Shown: positions 5,554 to 54,207 of the stretch, in pieces
Numbering within the stretch: the first letter of the stretch is position 1
Layout of the letters: each line of letters starts with the position of its first letter
Source of the DNA: Flavobacterium beibuense
GTDB lineage: Bacteria > Bacteroidota > Bacteroidia > Flavobacteriales > Flavobacteriaceae
Direction: 5' to 3'
Assembly (NCBI RefSeq): GCF_004151245.1
Contig: NZ_JUIW01000011.1
Coordinates: 62,001-126,000 of the forward strand
DNA length: 64,000 nt
Notes under the pieces: model-generated
Seen by the model: only the letters and a program-made list of their open reading frames with translations
What the model was told of the DNA's origin: nothing
The model's database searches: none
Position numbers and translations under genes: made by a program

Positions 5554-6879
5554 ATGAAAAAATCTTTAATGGCTTTGGGTTCACTTCTGATGCTTGGCGG
5601 AGTAGCTTCAGCCCAAAAAGTAGCATTTGAGGAATACGATCTGGATAATGGTCTGCATGTAATATTACATCAGGACAAATCGGCTCCTGTTATCGTTACA
5701 TCGGTTATGTATCACGTAGGTTCTAAAGATGAGAACCCTCAGAGAACAGGATTTGCACATTTCTTTGAGCACCTTTTATTTGAAGGTACAGAAAATATTG
5801 CACGTGGAGAGTGGTTTAAAATAGTTACTGCAAACGGTGGTAACAATAACGCCAATACTTCTGACGACAGAACTTACTATTATGAAGTATTCCCTTCAAA
5901 CAACCTTGAGCTTGCCATTTGGATGGAATCTGAAAGGTTAATGCACCCGGTTATTAACCAAATTGGTGTTGATACTCAAAATGAAGTAGTAAAAGAAGAA
6001 AAAAGGCTACGTGTAGACAACCAGCCTTATGGTAACCTTCTTGCAGAGGTTAAAAGAAACCTATTCACAGTACACCCATACCGTTGGGCTACTATCGGTT
6101 CTATGGATCACCTGGATGCTGCTACTTTAGAAGAGTTCCAGGCTTTCAACAAAAAATTCTATATCCCTAACAATGCTGTATTAGTAATTGCAGGTGATTT
6201 AGATATCGCTCAAACTAAAGAGTGGGTGAACAAATACTTTAGCGCAATACCTAAAAGTACACCTATTACTCGTCAGCACTTTGAGGAAGCTCCTATCACA
6301 AAAACTATCCACGCTACATACGAAGATCCTAATATCCAGCTGCCAATGGCAATTGCTGCATATAGAACTCCTTCTATGAAAACAAGAGAGGCAAGAGTAC
6401 TTGATATGATTTCTGCTATCCTAAGCGGTGGTAAAAGTTCAAGAATGTACAAGAGAATTGTAGACGAGGAGAAAATGGCACTTCAAATGGGTGCTTTCAA
6501 CTACAGCCAGGAAGATTATGGTGCATATATTATATATGGCATCCCTATGCAGGGCCATACATCGGAAGAGCTTATCGCTGAAGCTGATAAAGAAATCGTA
6601 AAACTACAAACTGAGCTTATTTCTGAAAAAGAAATGCAAAAGCTTAAAAACCAGTTTGAAAGCCAGTATGTAAACAGTAATGCGAGCGTTGAAGGTGTTG
6701 CAGAAAACCTTGCTACTTACTACCTGCTTTATGGTGATGTTAACCTTATAAATACTGAGAACGGTATTTACCAAAGCATTACAAGGGAAGAGATTAGGGA
6801 TGTGGCTAAAAAATACCTAAACCCTAACCAGAGATTAATTCTTGATTACGTACCAGCTAAAGACAAAGCACAAAACTAA
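5554..6879 (+). CDS. M16 family zinc metallopeptidase, catalytic subunit
   Basis: A 441-residue insulinase/pitrilysin-type protease. A signal peptide (about 1-20, ending ASA) directs it to the envelope. The inverted zinc motif HxxEH is intact (HFFEH, residues 69-73), with the downstream Glu region EVVKEEKR. The C-terminal M16 domain contains ILSGGKSSRMYKRI. The next gene, 14 bases away, encodes an M16 protein lacking the zinc motif, so the two probably form a heterodimer like other two-subunit M16 proteases. The substrate is unknown, probably periplasmic peptides. Confidence 0.93.
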   Translation: MKKSLMALGSLLMLGGVASAQKVAFEEYDLDNGLHVILHQDKSAPVIVTSVMYHVGSKDENPQRTGFAHFFEHLLFEGTENIARGEWFKIVTANGGNNNANTSDDRTYYYEVFPSNNLELAIWMESERLMHPVINQIGVDTQNEVVKEEKRLRVDNQPYGNLLAEVKRNLFTVHPYRWATIGSMDHLDAATLEEFQAFNKKFYIPNNAVLVIAGDLDIAQTKEWVNKYFSAIPKSTPITRQHFEEAPITKTIHATYEDPNIQLPMAIAAYRTPSMKTREARVLDMISAILSGGKSSRMYKRIVDEEKMALQMGAFNYSQEDYGAYIIYGIPMQGHTSEELIAEADKEIVKLQTELISEKEMQKLKNQFESQYVNSNASVEGVAENLATYYLLYGDVNLINTENGIYQSITREEIRDVAKKYLNPNQRLILDYVPAKDKAQN

Positions 6880-6893
6880 GCATACAAAACATC

Positions 6894-8936
6894 ATGAAAA
6901 AAGTAATATATATATTAGCCAGCTTGTTTTTAACAGTTACTATGCAGGCACAAGACAGACCAATGCCCCAGGCGGGCCCGTCGCCTACTGTAAACGTAGG
7001 TAAGCCGGAAACATTTAAACTTAAAAACGGTTTAACTGTACTAGTTGTGGAAAACCACAAACTACCTAGAGTATCTTATACACTTACTATGGACAACGCT
7101 CCATATGCTGAAGGAAGCAAAAAAGGTGTTTCAGATCTATTAAGTGCTGTAATAGGTAGTGGTACTAAAAAAATGTCTAAAGAAGCATTTAACGAAGAGA
7201 TTGACTTTTTAGGTGCCAACATTAACTTCTGGGCCAGCGGTGCTGCCGGAAGCGGACTTTCTAAATACTCTAACAGAATTCTTGAGTTAATGGCAGACGG
7301 TGCTCTTAACCCTGTGTTCACTCAGGAAGAGTTTGATAAGCAAAAAGCTAAAATGATTGAAGGACTTAAGTCTGACGAGAAAAGCGTTTCTGCAGTATCT
7401 TCAAGAGTTACAGATCTTTTAATCTACGGTAAAAGCCATCCTGCAGGTGAGTATGTTAGCGAAGAGACACTAAACAACGTTACTTTAAACGATGTTGTAG
7501 AAAACTATAATACTTACTTCGTTCCTGGTAATGCTTACCTTGTAATTGTTGGTGACGTTAAAGTAAAAGACGTTAAGAAACAGGTTAAGAAGTTATTTGA
7601 AAACTGGACCCCTGCTACAGCTCCAAACATTACTTACACTGACCCTAAAGATGTACAGTACACTCAAATCGACTTTGTTGATATGCCAAACGCAGTACAG
7701 TCTGAAATTTCAGTTGTAAACGTTTCTAATCTTAAGATGACAGACAAAGAATACTTTGCTGCTATCCTTGCTAACCAAATCCTTGGTGGTGGTGGAGAAG
7801 GCCGTCTATTCCTTAATCTTCGTGAGGCTCACGGATGGACTTATGGTTCATACTCTTCACTTGGCGCTAACAAACGTGTATCTTCTTTCCGTGCTACAGC
7901 TTCTGTAAGAAATACAGTAACTGACAGTTCTATCGTTGAGATTCTTAACGAAATGAAGAGAATAAGAACTGATCTTGTAAGCGAAGAAGATCTTAAAAAC
8001 GCTAAAGCTAAATACATTGGTAACTTTGTAATGCAGATTGAAAAACCATCTACTGTTGCCAGTTACGCTTTAAGAACAGAAACACAAAACCTTCCTGCAG
8101 ATTTCTATGAGAACTACATTAAAAACATTAATGCAGTAACTCCTGAAGATATTAGAAATGCAGCTCAAAAATTCTTTAAGGCTGATAATGCAAGAATCGT
8201 AATTGTAGGTAAAGCTGCAGACGTATTACCGGGTCTTGAGAGCAGAAAGCTTCCTATCAACTATTTTGATAAGTATGGCAACCCTACACAAAAACCGGTT
8301 CTTAACAAACCAATACCTGCTGGTGTAACAGCTAAAACTGTTTTAGAAGGTTATATCAACGCAATTGGTGGTGAGAAAGCCGTTAAAGGTGTAAAAACAC
8401 TTTATACTAAAGCTTCTGGTGTAGTACAGGGTACTCCGCTTGAGCTTACTGTAAAAACTACTGCAGACCACAAAATGTTTGTAGAAATGACTGCCATGGG
8501 TATGAGCATGATGAAACAGGTAGTTAACAACAAAGAAGGCTACATGGTACAACAAGGCCAAAAAATGGCTGTTGAGGGTGAAAAGCTGGAGGAAATGAGA
8601 AAAGGTGCAGTTCCTTTTGATGAGCTTAACCTTGTAAACAATGCTAATGTAACCCTAACAGGTATCGAAACTATTAACGGTACTGACGCATATGCTGTTA
8701 AAAACGACGATACAACTTTATACTTTGACACAAAAACAGGTTTAAAAATTGCTGAAGCTAAAGAAATGGAACAAATGGGTCAAAAAATGACACAAACTAC
8801 ATATTACAGCGATTATAAAGATGTAAAAGGTATTAAGATTCCTTACAAACTTACAATGAATGTAGGTATCGATATTGAGTTAACAGTTTCTGAGGCTAAG
8901 ATCAATGAAGGTGTTAGCGATGCTGATTTCCAATAA
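6894..8936 (+). CDS. M16 peptidase-like non-catalytic subunit with extra C-terminal domain
   Basis: 680 residues with a signal peptide (about 1-19, ending MQAQ). Two M16 domains are recognisable (KLKNGLTVLVVENHKLPRVS; GGGGEGRLFLNLREAHGWTYG), but the position of HxxEH reads GVSDLLSAVIGSGT, so zinc ligands are absent. The R/Y motif for substrate binding (REAHGWTYG) is kept. After about residue 470 an extra domain of about 200 residues follows, with a small lipoprotein-carrier-like beta pattern (KTLYTKASGVVQG; YFDTKTGLKIAEAKE). It is cotranscribed with the catalytic partner upstream and ends at a terminator. Confidence 0.92.
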   Translation: MKKVIYILASLFLTVTMQAQDRPMPQAGPSPTVNVGKPETFKLKNGLTVLVVENHKLPRVSYTLTMDNAPYAEGSKKGVSDLLSAVIGSGTKKMSKEAFNEEIDFLGANINFWASGAAGSGLSKYSNRILELMADGALNPVFTQEEFDKQKAKMIEGLKSDEKSVSAVSSRVTDLLIYGKSHPAGEYVSEETLNNVTLNDVVENYNTYFVPGNAYLVIVGDVKVKDVKKQVKKLFENWTPATAPNITYTDPKDVQYTQIDFVDMPNAVQSEISVVNVSNLKMTDKEYFAAILANQILGGGGEGRLFLNLREAHGWTYGSYSSLGANKRVSSFRATASVRNTVTDSSIVEILNEMKRIRTDLVSEEDLKNAKAKYIGNFVMQIEKPSTVASYALRTETQNLPADFYENYIKNINAVTPEDIRNAAQKFFKADNARIVIVGKAADVLPGLESRKLPINYFDKYGNPTQKPVLNKPIPAGVTAKTVLEGYINAIGGEKAVKGVKTLYTKASGVVQGTPLELTVKTTADHKMFVEMTAMGMSMMKQVVNNKEGYMVQQGQKMAVEGEKLEEMRKGAVPFDELNLVNNANVTLTGIETINGTDAYAVKNDDTTLYFDTKTGLKIAEAKEMEQMGQKMTQTTYYSDYKDVKGIKIPYKLTMNVGIDIELTVSEAKINEGVSDADFQ

Positions 8937-49907: not shown

Positions 49908-50645
49908 TTAAGCTACCGGATTCATAACTTTTAGTGCCTCAGCCGGATTGGCAAGGCTTAATTTGTAAACATCTTCTGTTTGTCCGGTACGTATCTCATA
50001 CCTGTTGCCTGCAATGGCATCCAGCACATCCTCTGCCACTACTGACGGAGCAATACCATTCTCCCCTCCTATTTCTTTAGAAAGCTCAGTATTAACCAGA
50101 GGAGGCATTAGTTCAAACACCTTAACCGAAGTATCTTTTAAAGCCAATCGCAACGATGTTGTATAGGAATGAAGTGCTGCTTTTGAAGCCGCATAAGTTG
50201 GCAGGTGTTGTGTTGGCACATAAGCAACTACAGACGATACATTCAATACAGCTGCCTCATTTTGTTCTTTTAGTAAGGGTAATAGTTTATCGGTAAGGCG
50301 GAGTACCGAAAAGTAATTGGTTGTCATTTCGTCCACCGCTATATCATACGACCTTGATTCCGACAGGTTATGTATAAGTGCCCTACCTGCATTATTGATC
50401 AGGATATTCAGCTCAGGAAATTCTGCTTTTATCCTTTCTGTAAGAGCATCAGCATCAGCTGCACTGGTAACATCAAACTGTATTGCGGTTACATTACCTA
50501 ATTCCGCTTTTGCTTTTTCAAGCCTTGCTGCATCTCTTCCGGTAATTATCACCTTGTTGCCCTGCTGTACAAACTTTCTTGCAATTTCAAGACCTATACC
50601 GGCACTACCGCCGGTTATTAAAATGGTATTTCCTGTTGTTTTCAT
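49908..50645 (-). CDS. SDR family oxidoreductase (DltE-like)
   Basis: 245 residues. Glycine motif TGGSAGIGLEIA, NNAGRAL, NVSSVVA and YAASKAAL are all intact. NAD(P)-dependent; probably acts on a ketoacyl or related group, given its place at the end of the thiolase - thioesterase - KAS II group (24 bases after fabF). Substrate not known. Confidence 0.9.
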   Translation of the reverse strand: MKTTGNTILITGGSAGIGLEIARKFVQQGNKVIITGRDAARLEKAKAELGNVTAIQFDVTSAADADALTERIKAEFPELNILINNAGRALIHNLSESRSYDIAVDEMTTNYFSVLRLTDKLLPLLKEQNEAAVLNVSSVVAYVPTQHLPTYAASKAALHSYTTSLRLALKDTSVKVFELMPPLVNTELSKEIGGENGIAPSVVAEDVLDAIAGNRYEIRTGQTEDVYKLSLANPAEALKVMNPVA

Positions 50646-50669: not shown

Positions 50670-51914
50670 TTAAACTTTCTTAAAAATGGTACTCGCTGTA
50701 TGTCCGCCAAAGCCAAAAGTGTTGTTAAGCACATAATCCACTTTAGTTTTTACAGCCTGTTGTGTAATTATATTGAGCCCCGAAGGGATTGCATTGTCTA
50801 TGTTTTGTGTATTGATTGTAGGAGGGATAATATTATTTTGTATTGCCAATACACTTATAATACTTTCTATTGCGCCGGCAGCACCCAGTAAATGTCCCGT
50901 CATGGATTTTGTCGCACTTATAGCCGGAGTATGATTACCAAAAAGTGTTTTAACCGCTGTAAGTTCACTGACATCCCCTAACGGAGTAGACGTAGCATGA
51001 GTATTGATATAGTCTATCTTATCGGGTGTAAGTCCGGCATCGTTAAGAGCTTTCTGCATACCCAGCAATGCGCCTATACCATCTGCAGGGGTAGCTGTTA
51101 AATGGTAAGCATCTGCTGCCATACCGCCACCTGCCAATTCTGCATATATTTTTGCACCACGGCTAACTGCGTGGTCCCATTCCTCAAGTATAAGGGCACC
51201 GGCACCTTCACCTGCAACAAATCCGTCCCTATTACTATCAAAAGGCCTTGAGGCACCCTGCGGGTCATCATTGCGTTTGGAAAGTGCCTGAGAAGCATTA
51301 AAACCTCCTATAGAAGCAGGAGTTATGGCAGCTTCACTACCACCCGCTATCATAATATTTGCCCTGCCCAGCCTTATGGCATCATAAGCAGCAATTAACG
51401 CCGTGTTTGATGAGGCACAGGCAGAAACCGTAGCATAATTAGGTCCGTGTAAACCATTGCGTATTGAGATAACACCTGCTGCAATATCCACAATCATTTT
51501 AGGGATAAAAAACGGGTTGAAACGTGGTGTACCATCTCCTTTATGAAACTCATCCAGCTGCTCTTCAAACGTACCTATACCACCATTACCCGAAGCCCAA
51601 ATAACACCTACATCAAATCGCTGCTCCTGTGTCATTGTATTAAAATCCAGGCCTGCATCCTGTATTGCCTCGTCTGTGGCAGCTATGGCATATTGGGTAA
51701 AAAGATCATATTTCTTAATTTCCTTACGTTCTATATAATCTTCAGGATTAAAACCCTTAACCTCACAGGCAAACTGCGTTTTAAACTTAGAGGCATCAAA
51801 TTTTGTTATGGGTCCGGCACCACTTTTACCTGCTATTATATTCTGCCAAAACTCCGCTACCGAATTACCCAACGGGGTAATGGCACCAAGTCCTGTTACG
51901 GCTACTCTTTTCAT
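50670..51914 (-). CDS. fabF: Beta-ketoacyl-ACP synthase II (KAS II)
   Basis: 414 residues. Condensing enzyme with catalytic Cys in TVSACASSN (Cys 166), first His in YINTHATSTPLGD and second in KSMTGHLLGAAGA; all three are present. Extends an acyl-ACP with malonyl-ACP. The operon context (thiolase, thioesterase, SDR, TetR) suggests a dedicated role and not the main fatty-acid gene, which usually sits beside acpP. Starts four bases after the thioesterase stop. Confidence 0.93.
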   Translation of the reverse strand: MKRVAVTGLGAITPLGNSVAEFWQNIIAGKSGAGPITKFDASKFKTQFACEVKGFNPEDYIERKEIKKYDLFTQYAIAATDEAIQDAGLDFNTMTQEQRFDVGVIWASGNGGIGTFEEQLDEFHKGDGTPRFNPFFIPKMIVDIAAGVISIRNGLHGPNYATVSACASSNTALIAAYDAIRLGRANIMIAGGSEAAITPASIGGFNASQALSKRNDDPQGASRPFDSNRDGFVAGEGAGALILEEWDHAVSRGAKIYAELAGGGMAADAYHLTATPADGIGALLGMQKALNDAGLTPDKIDYINTHATSTPLGDVSELTAVKTLFGNHTPAISATKSMTGHLLGAAGAIESIISVLAIQNNIIPPTINTQNIDNAIPSGLNIITQQAVKTKVDYVLNNTFGFGGHTASTIFKKV

Positions 51915-51918
51915 ACAT

Positions 51919-52350
51919 TTATTTTATTTCGGTTTTTATCAGATTGGTATAGCCTCTTGCTATGAGTTTGGTATGGTCTTCATTCCATATCTCACACTGT
52001 GCATTTACAATCTGCTTTCCTTTTTTTATCACTGTAGATGTTGCTGTAATAACATCCCCTTCACGAGCCGAAGCAAAATAGTCTACAGCCAGATTTACTG
52101 TTATATGGTAATAGGGTTCGCCCATACTTATAAAAGTTGCTCCTACGGCGTCATCTATCATAGCTGCCGTTACCCCACCATGGAGTATCCCGAACGGGTT
52201 GGTCATTTCTTTTCTTACCGTATACTGAAATGTGAGACTTTCGGACTCTACAGCCACCATAACCGGATTTAACCAGTTCATAAAAGCTGATGGTGAATTC
52301 TCTACCTTTTTACCCAAAAACTGTTTCAGGAATTCTGATGCCTTTTCCAT
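51919..52350 (-). CDS. PaaI-type hotdog thioesterase
   Basis: About 143 residues. Hotdog fold with NPFGILHGGVTAAMIDDAVGA (HGG and Asp), and SAREGDVITATSTVIKKGKQI. Hydrolyses acyl-CoA or acyl-ACP. Begins one base beyond the thiolase stop (ATG 52350); an alternative frame up to 52368 would overlap thiolase. Same operon as fabF. Confidence 0.9.
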   Translation of the reverse strand: MEKASEFLKQFLGKKVENSPSAFMNWLNPVMVAVESESLTFQYTVRKEMTNPFGILHGGVTAAMIDDAVGATFISMGEPYYHITVNLAVDYFASAREGDVITATSTVIKKGKQIVNAQCEIWNEDHTKLIARGYTNLIKTEIK

Positions 52351-52351
52351 A

Positions 52352-53515
52352 TTACTGTAAATTTTCAATTACTAATGCCGAGGCTCCTCCGCCTCCGTTA
52401 CAAATTGCGGCAACACCATATTTACCGCCTTCCTGTTTAAGGACAGATAAAAGCGTTACCACTATCCTAGCCCCCGATGCGCCTATTGGGTGTCCCATAG
52501 CCACACCGCCTCCATAAACATTTATCTTATCCATATCTAGATCCAGAATTTTACTGTTTGCCAGTATCACCGCAGCGTAAGCTTCATTAATTTCATAGTA
52601 ATCAATATCCTCTTTGGTAAGTCCTGCCTGTTGCAATGCTTTAGGTATAGCTATCGCCGGCGATGTGGTAAACCATTCGGGGGCTTGGGCGGCATCTGCA
52701 TAACCTTTAATCTTTGCCAGTGGTTTAAGGTTATATTCCTTTATCATTTCTTCTGAAACCAGTAATAAGGCAGCAGCGCCATCATTAAGGTTACTGGCAT
52801 TTGCAGCTGTAATGGTACCTCCTTCTTCAAAAACAGGTTTTAATTTGGCTACCTTTTCCGGTATAAGTTTATACACATCCTCGTCTGCCGTAATTGTCGT
52901 TCCGTTAACCGTAAGAGGAATTATTTCATTATTAAACTTACCCTGGCTAAATGCTTTTGCAGCTTTCTCGTAAGACTGTAAGGCATAAGCATCCTGATCT
53001 TCCCTTGACAGATAGTATTCCCTGGCACAAATTTCTGCCGCATTCCCCATGTGGAAACTGTTGTAAACATCAGTCAGACCATCTTTCAGTAAACCGTCTA
53101 TAACTTCTGTATTGCCAAGTTTTGTGCTTTTACGCTGGGTTGTATGATGAGGAACATTGCTCATGCTCTCCATTCCGCCTGCTACAACTGCATTATCGGT
53201 TCCCAATTGTATCTGCTGGGCTCCTGTAATAACAGCCTTTAGTCCCGAAGCACAAACCTTATTTACCGTTGTGGCATCTGCCTCCACGGGCAATCCTGCA
53301 AATACTGCAGCCTGTCTTGCAGGGGACTGCCCTAAATTTGCAGAAAGCACATTTCCCATATATACAGAGTCTACCTTCTCTTTTGGAAACCCTATCTCAT
53401 TCACTATACTCTCAACAGCAATCTTACCCAACTCTGTTGCAGTAAAACCCGAAAGGCTACCTAAAAACCCTCCTATTGGGGTTCTTTTTGCAGCCACTAT
53501 AAATACATCTTTCAT
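52352..53515 (-). CDS. Acetyl-CoA C-acyltransferase (thiolase)
   Basis: 387 residues. The reactive Cys is in TVNKVCASGLKAV (Cys 88), with GHPIGASGARIV and CNGGGGASAL for the second Cys and His. Biosynthetic or degradative thiolase: joins or splits acyl-CoA and acetyl-CoA. First structural gene behind the 53533 operator, 49 bases after the tetR stop. Confidence 0.94.
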   Translation of the reverse strand: MKDVFIVAAKRTPIGGFLGSLSGFTATELGKIAVESIVNEIGFPKEKVDSVYMGNVLSANLGQSPARQAAVFAGLPVEADATTVNKVCASGLKAVITGAQQIQLGTDNAVVAGGMESMSNVPHHTTQRKSTKLGNTEVIDGLLKDGLTDVYNSFHMGNAAEICAREYYLSREDQDAYALQSYEKAAKAFSQGKFNNEIIPLTVNGTTITADEDVYKLIPEKVAKLKPVFEEGGTITAANASNLNDGAAALLLVSEEMIKEYNLKPLAKIKGYADAAQAPEWFTTSPAIAIPKALQQAGLTKEDIDYYEINEAYAAVILANSKILDLDMDKINVYGGGVAMGHPIGASGARIVVTLLSVLKQEGGKYGVAAICNGGGGASALVIENLQ

Positions 53516-53532
53516 AATATTATTTCTATTTT

Positions 53533-53546
53533 ATACCAATCGGTAT
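53533..53546. promoter_or_regulatory. TetR-type operator before the thiolase operon
   Basis: ATACC-AATC-GGTAT, a 5-bp inverted repeat within an identical 16-base word (TTATACCAATCGGTAT) also found at 54182-54197. It lies 18 bases before the thiolase start and downstream of tetR. No other copy was noticed in the window. Confidence 0.7.
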
Positions 53547-53564
53547 ATTTTGTAATAAAAAAAT

Positions 53565-54158
53565 TTATATCGCTAATTCATCAATTATATTTTCTGCATG
53601 GTTCATAGCAGCATTAAGCGTGTTTATTTTACCTGTAACCTTAACCAGCATAACGCCACCTTCTATAAGCGCTACCAGAGTCCACCCAAAAGCAGAAGCG
53701 TCAACATCAGGCTTGATAAAGCCATTCTTTTTACCGTCATTTATAACCTTAACAATACTGTCATGCCACTTCCTTATGGCATTAACTACGTTCTCACGCA
53801 GGTCTACGTGTGTATCATCAACTTCTGTCGCCGAATTAAGTACGGGACATCCCCAACGTAATACAGGGTTATCTGTAAAGTTTGAAAAGACATTAATATA
53901 TATTTTCAGCTTTTTAATAGGATCTGGTTCATTATCCCTCTTCTCCTTTATCCATTCCGATAGCAGGTCAAAATTATAATTGAAGGCAGCAATAGCCACT
54001 TCATCCTTATTTTTAAAGTTACCGTATATACTTCCTTTGGTTAATCCCGTAGCCTCGGTTATGTCAGAAAGAGAAGTTCCGGCATATCCCTTCCTGTTAA
54101 AAATGGGTGCCGTTTTTTCAATTATAAACTGTCTTGTCTTTTCTGCTTTGGTCAACAT
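53565..54158 (-). CDS. TetR/AcrR-family transcriptional regulator
   Basis: 197 residues. N-terminal helix-turn-helix TSLSDITEATGLTKGSIYGNFKNKDEV is typical; the C-terminal part is a ligand-binding domain. First gene before the thiolase operon, flanked by two identical operators, one of which lies within its own promoter, so it probably represses itself and the operon. Start chosen at ATG 54158 (LTKAEKTRQF); an extension to 54179 reaches into the promoter. Confidence 0.92.
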   Translation of the reverse strand: MLTKAEKTRQFIIEKTAPIFNRKGYAGTSLSDITEATGLTKGSIYGNFKNKDEVAIAAFNYNFDLLSEWIKEKRDNEPDPIKKLKIYINVFSNFTDNPVLRWGCPVLNSATEVDDTHVDLRENVVNAIRKWHDSIVKVINDGKKNGFIKPDVDASAFGWTLVALIEGGVMLVKVTGKINTLNAAMNHAENIIDELAI

Positions 54159-54176
54159 CGTGTAAAATCTAGGATA

Positions 54177-54207
54177 CAAAATTATACCAATCGGTATTAT
54201 TTACAAA
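54177..54207 (-). promoter_or_regulatory. tetR promoter with operator inside its spacer
   Basis: On the minus strand TTTG (54204-54207), 19 bases, then TAATTTTG (54177-54184): an ideal flavobacterial promoter. ATACCAATCGGTAT (54184-54197) fills the spacer, so a bound TetR would block RNA polymerase. Confidence 0.8.

Follow-up and report, generated by a model that had tools for sequence, protein, structure and literature searches.

The window analysed here, a 64,000-nucleotide stretch of Flavobacterium beibuense DNA, carries on its minus strand a gene for a TetR-family regulator with a TetR_C_13 C-terminal domain (tetR), which is flanked by two identical palindromes. We consider it quite probable that this arrangement is a local cassette in which the regulator represses its own gene and also gates the adjoining operon, with binding, repression, and induction deduced from sequence comparisons. 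According to this proposal, a TetR_C_13 dimer would bind the two palindromes on either side of its own gene. At the upstream site (op1), the dimer would occupy the tetR promoter between its -33 and -7 elements, turning tetR transcription off, and at the downstream site (op2) it would keep the genes for a thiolase, a thioesterase, FabF, and a short-chain dehydrogenase off. A small molecule or a reactive compound would release the dimer, and tetR and its cargo genes would then be switched on together.

The tetR gene spans positions 53565 to 54158 (minus strand) and encodes a protein of 197 amino acids that matches PF00440 in its N-terminal helix-turn-helix (E = 1.4e-11; 44.4 bits, curated cut-off 24) and PF16925, or TetR_C_13, toward its C-terminus (E = 7.3e-23; 81.5 bits, curated cut-off 27). 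Its start codon is most likely the ATG at 54158, and the TTG at 54179 is simply the start of the longest open reading frame. Reading along the minus strand, the promoter consists of a TTTG -33 element (54204 to 54207), 19 nt of spacer, the -7 element TAATTTTG (54177 to 54184), and then the ATG with its A at 54158. These elements agree with the consensus TTTG/TAnnTTTG, which is given for F. johnsoniae in PMC6847099, and the -7 element further matches the pattern TAHHTTTG conserved among relatives. The same source places the G of the -7 element at -5, and by analogy the tetR leader would be about 14 nt long. Operator op1, ATACCAATCGGTAT, lies at 54184 to 54197 and takes up most of the spacer; base 54184 belongs both to the operator and, as its first base, to the -7 element. 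The identical op2 lies at 53533 to 53546, beginning 19 nt beyond the end of the tetR stop codon and leaving 17 nt free before the thiolase ATG (53515), rather than the 18 bases given in a sequence-only reading of this DNA. That reading had otherwise correctly located a 16-base word at 53531-53546 and 54182-54197, without a mismatch at either place, and had correctly set the tetR-side copy inside the spacer of a TTTG-N19-TAATTTTG promoter. A run of seven T residues (53557 to 53563, minus strand) ends 10 nt upstream of op2, an offset that is conserved among relatives.

Downstream on the tetR strand, the gene order is thiolase, PaaI-like hotdog thioesterase, FabF, and short-chain dehydrogenase. 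The first cargo gene (52352 to 53515) encodes the thiolase, an acetyl-CoA C-acyltransferase (PF00108, E = 1.2e-88; TIGR01930, 444.5 bits, over the cut-off). It is followed by the gene for a PaaI-like thioesterase of the 4HBT hotdog type (51919 to 52350; PF03061, E = 8.4e-18; under the cut-off of the PaaD/PaaI equivalog), by that for a FabF-type beta-ketoacyl-ACP synthase II (50670 to 51914; TIGR03150, 561 bits, over the cut-off), and by that for the short-chain dehydrogenase (49908 to 50645; PF00106, E = 1.3e-47), which judging from gene spacing is probably the last member of the operon. A gene for a ribosome hibernation factor is divergent from tetR. We leave it out of the predicted targets because a homologue adjoins tetR in only 6 of 80 loci (L037-L040, L049, and L057; best 80 of 279).

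The sites are widely conserved in relatives that were picked by TetR protein similarity alone. Among the best 80 of 279 stretches that encode a relative, plus the window, the upstream site matches at 10 of 10 positions in 75 of 81 loci and the site after tetR does so in 66. Adding 57 further loci gave 138, and removing 16 at 90% identity left 122 non-redundant loci. In this set, op1 is present with 9-10 of 10 matches in 112 loci and op2, after the tetR stop, in 95, all of which also have op1; loci whose operators are of the AGACC or TGACC type fall below 9 and are counted here as lacking the site. The same scoring finds a site in 25 of 4029 random 230-bp windows and in 32 of 6100 shuffled op2 regions. 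Flavobacterium, Dyadobacter, Chitinophaga, Pedobacter, and Rufibacter are among the genera named in the record titles of the best 80. Two loci labeled Limnohabitans (L056) and Beijerinckiaceae (L091) are probably Bacteroidota loci in mis-binned MAG contigs. In another locus (L039:6608-6748), three successive operators, at 6608, 6686, and 6735, occur from tetR to the thioesterase gene.

This comparison supports the view that the palindromes are real operators. The opposing idea, that they are meaningless chance words, could appeal to the fact that the degenerate core is hardly enriched in the genome: ATACCN4GGTAT occurs at 12 places, versus 9 for a reversed control pattern. That idea is already contradicted by the retention of op1 in 112 and of op2 in 95 of the 122 loci, with control rates below 1%, and we regard its chances as negligible.

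Further support for a connection between the regulator and the sites comes from covariation. The recognition helix in the window reads LTKGS43IYGNF. Operators of the AGACCN4GGTCT type are found at one or both sites in five loci (L056, L110, L154, L164, and L168), where residue 43 of the protein is Cys or Gly. In the rest of the 138, as far as the proteins are readable, it is Ser or Ala, except for L161, which combines Cys43 with an ATACC operator. Operator variants mostly track residue 43, which is not the sole determinant because three loci (L160, L162, and L163) have TGACC operators with Ser43 and an otherwise different helix. Such covariation links the adjacent regulator to these sites, and the change from ATACC to AGACC with that from Ser/Ala43 to Cys/Gly is a candidate natural specificity switch.

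Within the organism, the predicted regulon looks local rather than genome-wide, comprising just these two sites. The exact word TTATACCAATCGGTAT occurs in the whole 3.7-Mb genome only at the two places flanking tetR. On this point, the sequence-only reading, which proposed to list a regulon by a genome search, is not supported. The single genomic site with one mismatch (L003) falls inside an open reading frame. Allowing up to three mismatches gives five matches in the window (shuffle mean 0.84), two of which are the same sites on the other strand and one of which is unrelated. Nor do counts of ATACCRATYGGTAT support a genome-wide regulon: the F. beibuense genome has two copies (control, 0), and a hand count from a table gives 82 places in 149 family genomes versus 20 for the control. 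Thirty of these places were fetched: 13 share a stretch with a tetR relative, 16 fall within an open reading frame of at least 100 amino acids, and one (L142) does neither. At this last place (L142:1501-1514), the sequence ATACCAATTGGTAT is part of a longer inverted repeat with A and T runs on each side, resembling a terminator. A related palindrome, ATACTAATTAGTAT, is found in the F. beibuense genome itself (contig C8, L176:1425), in a stretch fetched for a second TetR_C_13 match. Six operator words were absent from the literature that was searched, and nothing relevant emerged on TetR autoregulation in Bacteroidetes or on the combination of TetR, Flavobacterium, operator, and thiolase; this search lay mostly outside the subscription literature, and as a sign of novelty its outcome is weak.

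The genes behind op2 are far from constant. A first cargo gene was obtained for 77 of the 80 relatives, with L063, L087, and L102 yielding none, and together with the window 78 genes were compared with Pfam. Among these, 25 encode 4HBT proteins, 12 short-chain dehydrogenases, 11 DinB_2 proteins, 8 4HBT_2 proteins, 7 thiolases, 5 ABM proteins, 3 MFS proteins, and 2 ketoacyl synthases, with overlap between families, and 4 of the 78 are mycothiol-S-transferase-like. A tree was made from 80 TetR proteins (excluding L075, in which the tetR open reading frame is mis-called), and cargo was divided by single-linkage BLAST clustering into 14 classes, with 77 loci scored. On this tree, the first cargo gene switches class a minimum of 26 times, a number that may be inflated by over-splitting of the BLAST classes. 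The presence of op2 changes 7 times, with 72 loci having the site, including L056 and L110, which were scored as op2-bearing, and 8 lacking it; because of these eight loci, op2 is evidently dispensable. From these patterns, it seems that the repressor and its flanking sites stay together in many Bacteroidota while the cargo keeps switching, as might be expected of a portable cassette.

The two operators differ sharply in their surroundings. A sigma-A -7 element (TAHHTTTG) is present in the 30 nt that follow op1 at 84 of 112 loci (shuffled mean 3.85), and in 42 of these 84 it begins on the last operator base. Together with the covariation between operator and helix, this makes the predicted autorepression well supported by comparison. 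No such element follows op2 in any of 95 loci (shuffled 1.05), and none is found in the 60 nt preceding it (0/95; shuffled 2.25) or in the preceding 120 nt (0/71), where a control window inside tetR is also low (4/71). On the opposite strand, TAHHTTTG is in mild excess at both sites (op2, 8/95, shuffled 3.15; op1, 15/112, shuffled 4.3). Of the SM5 and sigma-54 motifs that PMC9723704 reports for F. psychrophilum, SM5 occurs at 3 of 95 op2 sites, with no clear excess over the shuffled 1.4, and sigma-54 at none of 95. A canonical sigma-70 promoter was also considered and is weak at op2, with a mean score of 8.84 of 12 versus 8.29 after shuffling with the operator kept; at op1 the values are 8.48 and 8.16. 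Because op2 has neither a sigma-A -7 element nor a sigma-54 motif and shows no clear excess of SM5, the notion of an operator set within a known promoter type cannot be transferred to it. Control of the neighboring operon through op2 is nevertheless supported by the presence of the site in 95 of 122 loci. Thus, both halves of the circuit anticipated by the sequence-only reading, autorepression and operon control, gain support from comparison, although its twin sites prove to be unsymmetric.

What op2 does have is the T-tract. A run of at least four T residues ends exactly 10 nt before the operator in 65 of 95 loci, 20 have no such run, and the tract is often of the form AnTm, with about one-third of tracts having A in the 5′ half. 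Clear hairpins lead into the run in a few loci (e.g., L040 and L151). As a general intrinsic terminator the tract was rejected: a hairpin with dG below -6 is found in 6 of 75 loci, and the median is -0.3 versus -0.8 for shuffled sequence.

In ten Flavobacterium loci, a further T-tract/operator unit lies 7-12 nt before the start of an MFS pump gene, which was identified by Pfam for L103 only and judged from near-identical N-termini in the other nine. The 330 nt upstream contain no TAHHTTTG in any of the ten. In L103, L104, and L108, the unit lies 11-12 nt before the start codon and has 250-330 nt of intergenic DNA upstream. In L099:7404-7439, the operator before the MFS-like gene (core at 7415) is centered in a perfect 36-bp inverted repeat, and L100, L103, L104, and L108 have inverted-repeat stretches, MITE-like as judged by eye, in the interval from paaI to the MFS gene, where they separate paaI from the third operator.

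How might op2 act? We prefer the reading that op2 overlaps and blocks a promoter of an unusual type, and put its chances at about even. Because in three of the ten loci the MFS unit sits by a start codon after a long intergenic stretch, where it looks promoter-like, an op2-type unit is favored as a promoter, and this same placement argues against the view that op2 is a roadblock. By the latter account, RNA polymerase starting at the tetR promoter would read through into the cargo genes and would be stopped by TetR at op2, leaving the stalled RNA with its 3′ end about 11 nt upstream, within the conserved T-tract. The complete lack of TAHHTTTG on either side of op2, the fixed offset of the T-run, and the few clear hairpins are all consistent with a roadblock. 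So is the narrow gap between tetR and cargo, only 10-18 nt, at five of the eight loci that lack op2, a shortness that is partly trivial because op2 needs room; from such gaps, the tetR promoter is probably able to drive the cargo genes. However, the scarcity of hairpins, the A residues in about a third of the tracts, and the loci without a T-run do not fit well, and we judge a roadblock to be a real but lesser possibility. Far less credible is a lac-like DNA loop of about 650 bp joining op1 and op2. The sites are identical and their spacing is narrow (middle half, 648-662), but a narrow spacing follows from the length of the tetR gene. Moreover, looping was rejected on the grounds that the spacing shows no helical phasing (mean resultant length of about 0.13 at periods near 10.5 bp; n = 95). 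TetR-family dimers are not known to form loops.

The nature of the signal is a separate matter, for which two proposals deserve comparison. Perhaps the regulator is a NemR-like sensor of electrophiles or oxidants that acts through Cys104, with cargo enzymes handling a reactive acyl or carbonyl compound. We hold this view tentatively. Of the 138 TetR proteins, 137 have Cys104 (the exception, L075, is a gap caused by the mis-called open reading frame) and 97 have Lys173. By hand count, both align with residues of NemR (4yze) and the two pairs are equally 69 apart, which fits the sensing cysteine of NemR and its lysine, given as Cys106 and Lys175 in PMC8748444. A cargo that includes DinB_2 proteins (11/78), mycothiol-S-transferase-like proteins (4/78), and MFS pumps would suit such a sensor, and AltR, a relative of NemR, is reported to detect thiosulfinates via Cys100. 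On the other hand, an invariant cysteine can be structural, 41 of 138 proteins lack Lys at position 173, and PMC8748444 describes a NemR-derived biosensor in which the lysine bond was not found, making the role of the lysine disputed. Furthermore, nemA and gloA, the co-operonic partners of nemR, are not adjacent to this tetR, whose neighbors are instead the genes for the thiolase, thioesterase, FabF, and short-chain dehydrogenase.

Those neighbors invite the alternative that the regulator senses acyl-CoA or acyl-ACP and governs fatty-acyl metabolism, which we consider somewhat unlikely. The first genes after op2 are rich in enzymes of acyl thioesters, namely the overlapping 4HBT and 4HBT_2 groups (25 and 8 of 78), the short-chain dehydrogenases (12), the thiolases (7), and the ketoacyl synthases (2), but the DinB, ABM, and MFS genes make the cargo rather varied for a single acyl substrate. 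The Bacillus FadR equivalog NF053878 scores 51.1 bits against a cut-off of 200, and the predicted fold (AlphaFold model, pLDDT 92.3) resembles FadR bound to stearoyl-CoA (3whc; Z 17.0, rmsd 3.0, 187 aligned) less than it does NemR (4yze; Z 20.1, rmsd 2.2, 187 aligned). CifR, whose PDB titles name cysteine mutants, is also a close match (6nsm; Z 20.3, rmsd 3.0, 190 aligned). The score for the ScbR family autoregulator-binding factor NF041196 is 81.6 bits, below its cut-off of 150. An acyl-CoA or acyl-ACP ligand, as put forward by the sequence-only reading, was a guess; given the conserved cysteine, an electrophile or oxidant is at least as good a candidate.

Several known systems resemble parts of the cassette. 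The closest solved fold to the modeled protein is 3eup (Z 26.4, rmsd 1.4, 196 aligned, 39% identity), an uncharacterized TetR protein of Cytophaga hutchinsonii from structural genomics, whose PDB title names no function. It belongs to the same family (E = 3.9e-43) and has the GCP motif. Among characterized regulators, AcuR from Rhodobacter sphaeroides (acuR-acuI-dddL) offers a precedent for autorepression by a TetR repressor that is encoded first in its own operon and whose operator overlaps the promoter. Its half-sites, AGAC-N6-GTCT, are in the same register as ATAC-N6-GTAT here. AcuR differs in the single operator described for it, a leaderless operon, and acrylate as inducer, and the AcuR equivalog NF051457 gives 50.1 bits for the present protein against a cut-off of 247. 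AltR of Pantoea ananatis and NemR of E. coli are likewise reported to be autorepressors with a sensing cysteine (for AltR, Cys100 is required). AltR further has extra candidate operators before other genes of its cluster, and NemR aligns over nearly the full length with a common GC column. However, the AltR operator is unlike the one here, the cargo of both regulators is different, and the accounts consulted describe no site directly downstream of either regulator gene. DitR from Stenotrophomonas maltophilia is described as a cysteine-dependent TetR protein that represses MFS pump genes and has several binding boxes, but these boxes are grouped in one promoter rather than placed on either side of the regulator gene.

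It is also conceivable, albeit doubtful, that the order of T-tract, 10 nt, operator, short gap, and ATG represents a separate kind of repressor-gated switch in Bacteroidota, one that operates without a sigma-A -7 element. If true, it would be either a non-standard promoter in which the operator serves as the -10-like part or a switch based on roadblock and termination, and it would form a portable output port that has repeatedly gained new cargo genes. The absent sigma-A element at op2 poses a concrete puzzle about how transcription starts and stops in these bacteria. In addition, the cassette is a natural experiment in how repressor specificity may change through residue 43, and both its motif and its recognition helix could serve to build inducible systems for Flavobacterium and its relatives.
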